From Ramlibacter tataouinensis TTB310 (lineage in GTDB: Bacteria > Pseudomonadota > Gammaproteobacteria > Burkholderiales > Burkholderiaceae_C): a stretch of 64,000 bases of DNA. Made by a program: the position numbers and the translations under genes. The notes beneath the pieces are model-generated. The model ran no database searches. It had not been told where the DNA came from and saw only the letters and a list, made by a program, of their open reading frames with translations. The stretch is taken from positions 3,608,001 through 3,672,000 of the forward strand of contig NC_015677.1 in the NCBI RefSeq assembly GCF_000215705.1. The letters run 5' to 3'. Positions 53,428 to 56,584 of the stretch are shown in pieces (within the stretch, counting starts at the first letter, position 1; each line of letters starts with the position of its first letter).

Positions 53428-54840
53428 ATGGCTTCCCCCGGCGCCCGCATCCTGGTGGTGGACGACGATGCCGACATGCTGCGGCTGCTGTCCATGCGGC
53501 TGGGCGCGGCCGGCTACCAGGTCCGGGCCGTGGGCTCGGCCGAGGCGGCGCTGGCCCAGCTCGCGCTGGAGCGCCCCCAGCTGGTGCTCAGCGACGTGCG
53601 GCTGCCGGGCCGCGACGGCCTGGCCCTGTTCGACGAGATCCGCGCCCGCCATCCCTCGCTGCCGGTGATCCTGCTCACCGCCCACGGCACCATCCCCGAT
53701 GCGGTGGAAGCGACGGCGCGCGGCGTGTTCACCTACCTGACCAAGCCCTACGACGGCCGCGAGCTGCTGGACAAGATCGCGCAGGCGCTGGCGCTCACCG
53801 CGCCGGCGCCGGCCGCCGCGCCAGCCGACGAGGGCTGGCGCATCGACGTGATCAGCCGCTCCGCCCGCATGGCCGAGCTGCTGGCCGAGGCGCGCATGGT
53901 GGCGGCCTCGGATGCCTCGGTGCTGCTGCGCGGCGACAGCGGCACCGGCAAGGAGATGCTGGCCCGCGCCATCCACAAGGCCAGCCCGCGAACGCGCCGG
54001 CCCTTCGTGGCCGTCAACTGCGGCGCCATTCCGGAAGCGCTGCTGGAATCGGAACTGTTCGGCCACATGAAGGGCGCCTTCACCGATGCCGTGGCCAACC
54101 ACAAGGGTTTGTTCCAGGCGGCCGACGGCGGCACCCTGCTGCTCGACGAAATCGGCGACATGCCGCCGGCGCTGCAGGTCAAGCTGCTGCGCGTGCTGCA
54201 GGAGCGCGCGGTGCGTCCGCTGGGCTCCAGCCAGTCCATCCCCGTCGACGTGCGCATCATCTCGGCCACCCACCGCAACCTGGAGGCGGCGATGGCGGCG
54301 GGGCAGTTCCGCGAGGACCTGTACTACCGGCTGAACGTGGTGACGCTGAGCCTGCCCACCCTGGCCGAGCGGCGCGAGGACATCCCGCTGCTGGCCAACC
54401 ATTTCCTGCACAAGCTGGCGACCAAGTACGGGCGGCGCCTGTCGGGCTTCGCGCCGGAGGCGCTCAAGGCCCTGACCACGGCCGCCTGGCCGGGCAACGT
54501 GCGGCAGCTCTACAACGTGGTCGAGCAGGTCTGCGCCCTGTCCACCACGCCGCTGGTGCCGCTGGCCCTGGTGCAGCGGGCGCTGCGCGTGCCCAGCGTG
54601 GAAGTGCTGACCTATGCCGAGGCCAAGCAGCGCTTCGAGCGCGAGTACCTGGTCGGGCTGCTCAAGCTGACCGACGGCAACGTGGCCGACGCGGCCCGGC
54701 TGGCCGGCCGCAACCGCACCGAGTTCTACCGCCTGCTGCAGAAGAACGAGCTCACGCCCGGCCATTTCAAGGGCGATTCTGTCGCCGGGGCCCAGACCCC
54801 TGTCACCGGCCTGCGACAAGACGATAGCCTTGATCCATAA
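53428..54840 (+). CDS. glrR: Sigma-54-dependent response regulator (GlrR-type)
   Basis: A 470-residue enhancer-binding protein: receiver (1-125, phosphoacceptor Asp56 in LVLSDVRLPGRDG), AAA+ domain with Walker A GDSGTGKE (about 169-176), Walker B GGTLLLDEIGDM, and a C-terminal Fis-type helix-turn-helix (NVADAARLAGRNRTEFYRLL). The sigma-54-contacting GAFTGA loop reads GAFTDA (216-221). Similarity to E. coli GlrR is strong around the AAA+ core (LFQAADGGTLLLDEIGDM). Binding sites of the GlrR pattern lie in its own 3' end and just downstream, before opgG. Confidence 0.9.
   Translation: MASPGARILVVDDDADMLRLLSMRLGAAGYQVRAVGSAEAALAQLALERPQLVLSDVRLPGRDGLALFDEIRARHPSLPVILLTAHGTIPDAVEATARGVFTYLTKPYDGRELLDKIAQALALTAPAPAAAPADEGWRIDVISRSARMAELLAEARMVAASDASVLLRGDSGTGKEMLARAIHKASPRTRRPFVAVNCGAIPEALLESELFGHMKGAFTDAVANHKGLFQAADGGTLLLDEIGDMPPALQVKLLRVLQERAVRPLGSSQSIPVDVRIISATHRNLEAAMAAGQFREDLYYRLNVVTLSLPTLAERREDIPLLANHFLHKLATKYGRRLSGFAPEALKALTTAAWPGNVRQLYNVVEQVCALSTTPLVPLALVQRALRVPSVEVLTYAEAKQRFEREYLVGLLKLTDGNVADAARLAGRNRTEFYRLLQKNELTPGHFKGDSVAGAQTPVTGLRQDDSLDP
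54801..54818 (+). promoter_or_regulatory. GlrR-type enhancer site 1, inside the end of glrR
   Basis: TGTC-ACCGGCCTGC-GACA matches TGTC-N10-GACA exactly. It lies in the last codons of glrR, 158 bases upstream of the -24 element at 54977. A weaker relative (TGTC-N10-AGAC) sits at 54780-54797, 21 bases upstream, two helical turns away. Confidence 0.7.
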
Positions 54841-54867
54841 GGGAAAAAAAACAGCAGAGCGGGTATT

Positions 54868-54885
54868 TGTCGCTGGCCGGCGACA
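54868..54885 (+). promoter_or_regulatory. GlrR-type enhancer site 2, upstream of opgG
   Basis: TGTC-GCTGGCCGGC-GACA matches TGTC-N10-GACA exactly and is extended by flanking T/A bases into TTGTCGC...GCGACAA. It is in the 163-base glrR-opgG gap, 91 bases upstream of the -24 element, the usual range for an enhancer. The symmetry also allows a hairpin, but no T-run follows. Confidence 0.75.
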
Positions 54886-54946
54886 AAAAACAGGGGTTTT
54901 GGCGGATTGCGAGGCGCCATCCTTGCTCAACAATAAAAAACCCTCG

Positions 54947-54959
54947 TAAGTCTTTGATT
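54947..54959 (-). promoter_or_regulatory. IHF site between enhancer and sigma-54 promoter
   Basis: On the minus strand AATCAAAGACTTA fits the IHF consensus WATCAANNNNTTR at every specified base. It lies between enhancer site 2 and the -24/-12 element, in a locally AT-rich stretch (A-runs at 54932-54941), where a bend would bring bound GlrR onto sigma-54 polymerase. Confidence 0.65.
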
Positions 54960-54976
54960 TTCTTTAAGTTTTTACC

Positions 54977-54992
54977 TGGCATAGGGTTTGCA
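54977..54992 (+). promoter_or_regulatory. Sigma-54 (-24/-12) promoter of opgGH
   Basis: TGGCATAGGGTTTGCA matches the sigma-54 consensus TGGCACG-N4-TTGCW, with correct spacing between GG (54978-54979) and GC (54990-54991). The expected start of transcription is near 55003, immediately before the opgG ATG at 55004. Confidence 0.8.
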
Positions 54993-55003
54993 CTAGCAGG
55001 TAA

Positions 55004-56584
55004 ATGCTTAGGCCGCCTGCCCTCTCCCTGCTGCTCTCCTGGCGCCTGGTGTGCGCTATCGGACTGGCCCTGTCGGCGCTGCCCCCCGCCTGGGCCCAGG
55101 GCTTCGATTTCGACCGCCTGACCCAGCTGGCGCGCCAGCGCGCCCAGGCTCCGCACAACGACCCCAGCACCCCGCTGCCGCCGGCCCTGGCCGCGCTGGA
55201 CTACGACGGCCTGCGCGACATCCGCTTCCGCCCGGGGCGCGCGCTGTGGCGCGACGCCGGCCTGCCGTTCGAGGCCATGTTCTTCCACCGGGGCAAGTAC
55301 CACCCGCAGCCGGTGCGCGTCAACGAGGTGCTGGAGGGTGGCAAGGTGCGCCCCATCCGCTTCAACCGGGCAGACTTCGACTACGGCAAGAACCCCGTCG
55401 ACCCCACGGCCTGGGGCGACCTGGGCTTCGCGGGCTTTCGCATCCATTACCCGCTCAACAACACGGCCTACAAGGACGAGCTGGCGGTGTTCCTGGGCGC
55501 CAGCTACTTCCGCGCCCTGGGCGCGGGCCAGCAGTACGGCCTGTCGGCCCGCGGCCTGGCCATCGACACCGTGGGCGGCAGCGGGCCGGAGGAATTCCCG
55601 CGCTTTTCCGAGTTCTGGCTGGAGCGCCCGGCGCCCGGCGCGCAGCAGCTGGTGCTGTACGCGCTGCTGGAGTCGCCCCGAGCCACCGGCGCCTACCGCT
55701 TCGTGCTGCGCCCGGGGCCGGAGAGCGTGACCGAGGTGCGGGCCCGCGTCTTCCTGCGCGCCGGCGCCGGCCAGCCGGTCACCACCCTGGGCATCGCGCC
55801 GCTGACCAGCATGTTCCTGTTCGGCGAGAACCAGCCGCGCCCCGCCGACTTCCGCCCCGAGGTGCACGATTCCGACGGCCTGATGATCGCCACCGCCAGC
55901 GGCGAATGGCTGTGGCGCCCCCTGGTCAACCCGCGCCAGCCGCTGACCAACAGCTTCACCGTGGACGGGCTGCGCGGCTTCGGCCTGATGCAGCGCGACC
56001 GCGGCTTCGCCAGCTACGAGGACACGGAAGCGCGCTACGAGCGCCGGCCCAGCGCCTGGGTCAGGCCCATCGGCGACTGGGGCCCGGGCCGCGTCGAGCT
56101 GTTCCAGCTGCCCACGCCCGACGAAACGCACGACAACATCGTGGCGTACTGGGTCCCGGCCCGCCTGCCCGCGCCGGGCGAGCCCCTGGAATTCGCCTAC
56201 GAGCTGGCCTGGCAGGGCGACGAGCAGCAGCGCCCGCCCAACGGCTGGGCGGTGCAGTCGCGCCGCGGCCTGGGTTTCGTGCGGCCCGAGGACATGCCCG
56301 GCCTGGCCGGCACGGTGCAGTACGTGGTGGATTTCGACGGCCCGGCGCTGCGCGCCCTGCCGGTCGATGCCGCCGTGCGGCCCGTGGCCACCGCCGACGC
56401 CAACGGCCGCATCGAGCAGCAGCTCGCCTATTTCAATCCGGCCACCCGAACCTGGCGCATGACGCTGCGGGTGCGACCCATCGACGCGGCGCGCCCTGTG
56501 GAGCTGCGCGCCTTCCTGCAACACGGCAACGACATCCTGAGCGAAACATGGACCAACATCATTCTTCCCGACGCCGCCCTCTGA
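55004..56584 (+). CDS. opgG: Glucan biosynthesis protein G (periplasmic)
   Basis: A 526-residue periplasmic protein: signal peptide (1-31, cleavage AWAQ-G) then the two-domain MdoG/OpgG fold (FDFDRLTQLARQRA near residue 33; YDGLRDIRFRP; C-terminal immunoglobulin-like domain from about 400). OpgG is needed for branching or release of osmoregulated periplasmic glucans made by OpgH. The ATG lies at the predicted sigma-54 transcription start, so the leader would be nearly absent; AGCAGG 4 bases upstream is a weak Shine-Dalgarno for a longer transcript. opgH overlaps its end by 37 bases. Confidence 0.93.
   Translation: MLRPPALSLLLSWRLVCAIGLALSALPPAWAQGFDFDRLTQLARQRAQAPHNDPSTPLPPALAALDYDGLRDIRFRPGRALWRDAGLPFEAMFFHRGKYHPQPVRVNEVLEGGKVRPIRFNRADFDYGKNPVDPTAWGDLGFAGFRIHYPLNNTAYKDELAVFLGASYFRALGAGQQYGLSARGLAIDTVGGSGPEEFPRFSEFWLERPAPGAQQLVLYALLESPRATGAYRFVLRPGPESVTEVRARVFLRAGAGQPVTTLGIAPLTSMFLFGENQPRPADFRPEVHDSDGLMIATASGEWLWRPLVNPRQPLTNSFTVDGLRGFGLMQRDRGFASYEDTEARYERRPSAWVRPIGDWGPGRVELFQLPTPDETHDNIVAYWVPARLPAPGEPLEFAYELAWQGDEQQRPPNGWAVQSRRGLGFVRPEDMPGLAGTVQYVVDFDGPALRALPVDAAVRPVATADANGRIEQQLAYFNPATRTWRMTLRVRPIDAARPVELRAFLQHGNDILSETWTNIILPDAAL

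Follow-up and report, generated by a model that had tools for sequence, protein, structure and literature searches.

In Ramlibacter tataouinensis TTB310, the opgGH operon for periplasmic glucan synthesis is very probably controlled by a GlrK/GlrR two-component system acting at a sigma-54 promoter. The stretch analysed here, referred to as the window, comprises 64 000 nucleotides (positions 3608001–3672000 of a single-contig 4.07 Mb genome), in which glrK, a qseG-like gene, glrR, opgG and opgH follow one another in that order, all on the + strand. The best reading of its sequence is that the known GlrR/QseF sigma-54 circuit is here wired to periplasmic glucan synthesis instead of to the small RNA (sRNA) glmY. 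This wiring appears to be shared by many beta-proteobacteria. The promoter elements, their order and spacing, their conservation, and the inheritance of GlrR together with the opg genes are direct results of computation and are described below.

A preliminary description of this DNA had placed two exact TGTC-N10-GACA sites, a perfect consensus for integration host factor (IHF) and a -24/-12 element upstream of opgG, and we find them all where it put them. Box 1, a predicted GlrR upstream activating sequence (TGTCACCGGCCTGCGACA, 54801..54818, + strand), is an exact match within the 3' end of glrR, and its position is matched in relatives. Box 2, also a predicted GlrR site and also exact (TGTCGCTGGCCGGCGACA, 54868..54885, +), is 67 bp from box 1 and runs directly into an A-tract (54886..54890, +); the sequence GACAAAA is invariant in 10 loci that can be stacked without gaps. 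The predicted IHF site (54947..54959, - strand; AATCAAAGACTTA / WATCAANNNNTTR) agrees perfectly with the IHF consensus, and a second IHF-like site after box 1 is degenerate in the window. The sigma-54 element (TGGCATAGGGTTTGCA, 54977..54992, +) has one mismatch to TGGCAC-N5-TTGCW, and its nine key positions are identical in the 10 stacked loci, themselves picked for high promoter score. If sigma-54 transcripts start 12 nt past the C of the -12 GC, as we assume, the predicted +1 would be 55003 (+), uncertain by about 2 nt. A weaker third box had been proposed at 54780 (TGTCGCCGGGGCCCAGACC); it was discarded, as its second half-site is GACC, at a spacing of 11 and not 10, within the glrR coding sequence.

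Single elements mean little, because their counts match those of controls. The window's genome contains a lone TGTC-N10-GACA at 45 places, against 38 for the reversed control, and -24/-12-like sequences at 74 places, against 93, so that the latter are not enriched. Two boxes with a -24/-12 element behind them are rare. The strict pattern, namely two boxes separated by a gap of 44–54 bp with TGG-N9-TGC 80–110 bp further on, has a single match in the 4.07 Mb genome and occurs in 23 of 150 genomes of the family, once in each, compared with 2 of the 150 for the reversed pattern. All 23 genomes belong to the 38 that have a GlrR orthologue of at least 62% identity. The match stands behind glrR in 20 of them; in the other three it is found at opgG (genome G119), at a BON gene (G032, locus L213) and at a small secreted gene (G049, L212). 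A looser scan, which admitted boxes with at most one mismatch and promoters scoring at least 0.9 at set spacings, recovered the full set in 29 of 32 opg-linked family loci and in none of 9,600 of their shuffles (a longer stretch being used for both at L032, L033, L041 and L045). In the window's genome no two-box target was found besides the opgG promoter, single-box targets lying outside the search's reach, and comparison of the single-element lists by eye revealed no other box and promoter close together.

The preliminary description made its proposal depend on finding the sites conserved upstream of opgG in relatives, and this check turned out in its favour: upstream of opgG or opgH they are conserved in many genera. 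When GlrR was used to query the 150 family genomes, orthologues sharing 70% identity or more turned up in 36, one of them the genome analysed here, and in 32 of these opgG (17) or opgH (15) lies within 0.7 kb downstream of glrR. Among the exceptions, G119 has its opgG 50 kb away with both boxes and the promoter, and no boxes behind glrR. An inserted gene parts glrR from opgG in G089 (L265), where opgG is preceded by boxes and, 100 bp past box 2, by a -24/-12 element (AGGCACGGGGCTTGCT); the inserted gene is Fic-like, as named by eye. A BON protein follows glrR in G030, and in G065, a genome in which no MdoG was found, a small open reading frame (ORF) comes after boxes and promoter. A further set of 80 named loci contains 52 that are opg-linked, all within 0.5 kb except L136, from Variovorax, Hydrogenophaga, Polaromonas, Ramlibacter, Acidovorax, Xylophilus, Rubrivivax and other genera; promoter and box 2 are present in 49 of the 52. 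The named loci are not independent, since many are congeners and L166 is apparently the same contig as G034.

The geometry of the elements is kept as well. Boxes 1 and 2 are 67 bp apart in 20 of the 29 family loci in which both could be scored. From box 2 to the promoter the distance is 110–113 bp in 20 of 30 family loci and near 80, 92 or 102 bp in the others, with 122 bp at one locus of the named set. These distances cluster near 81, 92, 102, 112 and 122 bp, at intervals of roughly one turn of the helix (Rayleigh R 0.78 at 10.5 bp, for 30 family loci that are not phylogenetically independent). Of 30 family loci, 22 have an exact IHF site at the corresponding place, compared with 2 of 6,000 shuffles, and the second IHF-like site is exact in 11 of the 30 and within one mismatch in 17. 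The 10 stacked loci are well diverged, because identity in their spacers is only 0.45–0.46, against 0.95 in the boxes and 1.0 at the -24/-12 positions. Since boxes and promoter were themselves the grounds for selecting these loci, part of this contrast stems from the selection, and shuffles and spacing carry more weight.

GlrR and the opg genes are also inherited together. MdoG is present in 46 of the 150 family genomes, comprising 34 of the 35 with GlrR of at least 76% identity and 12 of the remaining 115 (Fisher 2e-22, with no correction for kinship). Three of these 12 have a GlrR of 62–70% identity, and the congener G097 has neither GlrR nor MdoG.

The predicted +1 in the window (55003) directly adjoins the ATG of opgG (55004), and this geometry suggests that the opgG mRNA is probably leaderless, which is the least certain step of our reading. 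No well-placed Shine–Dalgarno sequence precedes 55004 in the window (an AGG is merely 3 nt away), and the next in-frame opgG start, GTG 55049, lies inside the signal sequence, as judged by eye. Of 30 family loci, 18 have an open, in-frame ATG 0–3 nt after the predicted +1, and 12 of these 18, counting the window's own locus, share the window's offset; the named loci have such an ATG in 29 of 49 cases. When the frame is disregarded, an ATG stands near +1 in 23 of the 30 family and 46 of the 49 named loci. The same fusion of promoter and ATG, at opgH, is seen in three genomes of family f43 (G235, G191, G375). Some opg loci have candidate starts only 20–52 nt after +1 (L038–L042, L045, L046, L162, L163, L170), and the BON and other small targets that we inspected have leaders of ∼20–70 nt, most with a Shine–Dalgarno sequence. 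Predicted leaderless opg starts are common, not universal.

Leaderless mRNA is a kind already known in proteobacteria. The sections of the two reports that bear on this describe 171 transcription start sites (TSS) at AUG in S. meliloti (PMC3616915) and leaderless TSS preceded by an extended -10 box motif in Bradyrhizobium (PMC4842269). Whereas the extended -10 motif is the promoter feature in Bradyrhizobium, here a -24/-12 promoter is set at a fixed distance from the start codon across genera, an arrangement for which one limited literature search found no description.

In Variovorax, Xenophilus and Pseudacidovorax the promoter-fused ATG starts a conserved ORF of 66–70 residues (L214:1707-1904). 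It is also present in L023, L026, L118, L119, L121–L123, L125, L127, L129–L134, L140, L153 and L154, and in diverged form in L036/L202. Except in the latter two, it ends a few nucleotides (about 7–14 where worked out) before the likely opgH start. Its median dN/dS is 0.40 (164/171 pairs), and the L214 product, which was searched, has no Pfam or NCBIfam match.

It is unlikely that opgG is instead transcribed mainly by read-through from glrK-qseG-glrR, or from a sigma-70 promoter, on an mRNA with a normal leader, with the sigma-54 start making a minor contribution. In its favour, the genes are co-directional and no terminator-like site lies on the + strand between glrR and opgG. However, a simple consensus scan found no sigma-70-like promoter in 54500–55300, and, given the sequence before 55004, extending the leader would add no obvious ribosome-binding site. 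Furthermore, many loci keep the distance from the -12 element to the ATG although the intervening sequence varies (identity 0.37 among the 10 stacked loci).

The assignment of the boxes to GlrR draws on the enterobacterial system. According to the relevant passages of PMC6075780 and PMC8745638, the QseF/GlrR site in E. coli and Proteus is TGT-N12-ACA or TGTC-N10-GACA, accompanied by IHF and sigma-54, and the preliminary description was right to recognize TGTC-N10-GACA as the published pattern. Our Pantoea control loci (L195, L196), at which GlmY was identified by Rfam, agree with this: the glmY promoters there contain three boxes, one exact and two with a single mismatch, together with TGGCAY-N5-TTGCT 26 bp before the RNA start. 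Enterobacterial QseE/QseG/QseF (GlrK/YfhG/GlrR), whose targets are glmY and rpoE P2, shares with the window the order kinase, lipoprotein, activator, as well as boxes, IHF site and -24/-12 element. The target differs: there it is an sRNA gene, glmY, upstream of glrK, whereas here it would be a protein-coding operon that lies downstream of glrR and serves periplasmic glucan synthesis, and Rfam found no GlmY-like sRNA in 48000–60000 of the window. Known opgGH (mdoGH) operons for osmoregulated periplasmic glucans encode the same OpgG and OpgH families, but here a sigma-54 activator and promoter adjoin them.

The regulator upstream of opgG (glrR, 53428..54840, +) is a sigma-54 activator response regulator with Response_reg and Sigma54_activat domains (Pfam). 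It had been called GlrR-type, and its score of 611.7 bits with NCBIfam GlrR (NF011695), against 415 for the runner-up NtrC, bears this out; since the score is below the curated cut-off of 763, we keep the label 'GlrR-type' and make no strict equivalog call. Its C-terminal helix–turn–helix (HTH) was recognized by alignment to Pantoea GlrR, and the segment ARLAGRNRTEFYxLL is identical in both. The window's genome encodes rpoN twice (G000 C1:284355-285884 and 1058636-1059973; L263, L264), both above the family cut-off. Conserved sites, a GlrR-type regulator and the presence of rpoN together support the earlier proposal of GlrR/sigma-54 control of opgGH.

That the promoter is a sigma-54 promoter whose boxes serve an activator other than GlrR is very improbable, even though many such activators are encoded (10–12 matches in nearly every genome, the best candidates being scored) and their half-site motifs resemble one another. 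The box–promoter matches fall in genomes with a GlrR orthologue, not only in the family, where most stand behind glrR, but also order-wide, in all 17 tested of 41 matching genomes, and both the HTH segment of GlrR and the box correspond to those of Pantoea GlrR and glmY. Least credible of all is that the boxes are RNA hairpins or the terminator of a glrKR operon. The inverted-repeat form of both boxes and the position of box 1 at the glrR end speak for it. The terminator reading was rejected, as no terminator-like site is found there and box 2 is followed by A and not T. Moreover, identity is low (0.52) among the inner six box bases but high in the half-sites, which are conserved in their sequence (0.95, in loci picked by boxes), and box pairs with the usual spacing stand before -24/-12 elements also at sites removed from glrR.

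Several observations nevertheless weigh against GlrR control of the opg genes as we propose it. The strict pattern is absent from 15 of the 38 family genomes with GlrR of at least 62% identity. No scorable box 2 and promoter are present at L031 and L048 in the family or at L136, L160 and L169 in the named set, and boxes were not found at several GlrR loci, mostly named Rhodocyclales (L172, L177, L181, L182, L184, L194). Pantoea and published glmY promoters have three boxes where we find two, and the NF011695 score of the regulator is below its cut-off. An in-frame ATG near +1 is missing from 12 of 30 family loci, the start being inferred from motif geometry. Finally, opg genes do not require GlrR, because 12 of the 46 MdoG genomes are without a close GlrR; five MdoG loci of those 12 genomes (L088, L090, L093, L097, L102) have no box–promoter pair. 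MdoG copies elsewhere in GlrR genomes mostly have no such pair either, the exceptions, L091 and L096, having a single one-mismatch box or a weak promoter only. Where glrR precedes opgH alone, a distant mdoG is probably not co-controlled, since such copies mostly lack the pair.

Control of opgGH by GlrK/GlrR would most likely operate as follows. GlrK would sense an envelope signal and phosphorylate GlrR, and GlrR-P would bind the boxes at 54801 and 54868. IHF would bend the DNA between box 2 and the promoter, and GlrR would spend ATP to open the sigma-54 polymerase complex at 54977–54992. Transcription would begin near 55003, so that a single base separates this position from the opgG ATG at 55004 in numbering, and opgG would probably be translated from a leaderless mRNA; the output would be more periplasmic glucan upon the envelope signal. 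Protein binding, sigma-54 dependence, the exact start, the signal, the direction (activation) and the mode of translation are all predictions from sequence.

The preliminary description knew of no account of this link in betaproteobacteria. Text searches of the open-licence literature found none, which is weak evidence of absence; within the same literature we found no description linking opgH/mdoH with GlrR/QseF, or GlrR/QseF with OsmY or the BON domain, and titles and the beginnings of abstracts gave no link of opgG with RpoN or of osmoregulated periplasmic glucans with sigma54. Francke et al. 2011 (PMC3162934), in the sections concerned, present sigma-54 as a controller of the bacterial exterior and list 'QseF-like' activators. 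The general envelope idea is therefore shared with that work, and a word search of its main text gave no opgG, mdoG or glucan.

Where no opg gene lies downstream of glrR, similar boxes and promoter often precede genes for BON-domain, OsmY-like secreted proteins. Such targets occur in Herbaspirillum, Chitinimonas, Chitiniphilus, Roseateles, and Thiobacillus and relatives, the last also with a DUF1328 protein; Pfam assigned five of seven non-opg products to BON and one to DUF1328, and one was without a family. An order-wide scan found the set in 41 of 300 genomes (47 matches) and not at all in the reversed control. Inspection of 26 new order loci (L220–L245) identified opgH in L239–L241 (Pfam on L239) and opgG in L222 and L223 (Pfam on L222). 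BON proteins are clear in L221, L228 and L231–L233 (the L228 and L232 sequence by Pfam, others by eye) and borderline in L234–L237, where Pfam, run on L234 alone, gave 26.9 bits against a cut-off of 27. L225–L227 encode short secreted proteins, and the remaining loci are unclear or likely chance, for example L220 and L230. The short secreted proteins at L225:1741-1872, which has no Pfam match, and L226:1297-1443 stand behind GlrR-type boxes and a -24/-12 element. In G353, G323, G382 and G439 regulation by GlrR in trans is likely, because the match is on another contig or megabases from glrR. The shared theme of the targets is periplasmic or envelope proteins.

We had considered the site pair of L212 (G049) as belonging to an sRNA gene and discarded this; it precedes a 71-residue secreted PsiF-like protein (1746-1958; Pfam 19.5 bits, below the cut-off of 21). 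At four loci of Thiobacillus and relatives (L187, L188, L191, L192), two -24/-12 elements follow one another behind glrR. A single box could be detected ahead of the first and a box pair ahead of the second; in L187 the first element precedes the gene of a small DUF1328 membrane protein and the second that of a BON/EF-hand protein.

The glrK-like sensor histidine kinase gene (51346..52785, +) has Pfam HisKA and HATPase_c above cut-off and HAMP below it; by gene order the window has glrK before glrR, as expected of GlrR/QseF systems, and glrK is upstream of glrR at the relatives' loci too. Between them lies a gene (52775..53416, +) for a lipoprotein of uncertain identity that we call qseG-like for its position, its lipobox LIGC and a C-terminal motif. 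It has no Pfam or NCBIfam match, and its hhalign probability against Pantoea QseG is 69%, as a profile match only. Downstream, opgG (mdoG; 55004..56584, +) matches PF04349 with 632 bits, and opgH (mdoH; 56548..58620, +) matches NCBIfam MdoH (NF003960) with 1172 bits, against a cut-off of 829. The exact start of opgH is uncertain; its first in-frame ATG falls within the opgG end (56548–56584), and this overlap suggests coupled translation.

We lean slightly towards a wider view in which beta-proteobacterial GlrR would be a regulator of the periplasm. A module of two boxes, one or two IHF sites and a -24/-12 promoter would drive opgGH or opgH, BON/OsmY-like proteins or other small secreted proteins, and the enterobacterial glmY connection would be a derived rewiring. 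Fusion of promoter and start codon would have arisen in Comamonadaceae with some related groups and a second time in family f43, so that sigma-54 alone would set the leaderless opg mRNA; in Variovorax and its allies the same fused ATG would start the 66–70-residue protein ahead of opgH. GlrR/sigma-54 control of the opg genes, if true, would provide periplasmic glucan synthesis, throughout a large group of beta-proteobacteria, with a sensor, an activator and a sigma factor that can be named. It would also suggest that GlrK/QseE monitors the periplasm, independently of the host-hormone idea, and would provide a natural, conserved sigma-54 promoter without a 5' leader, useful for the study of leaderless translation under an on/off promoter.

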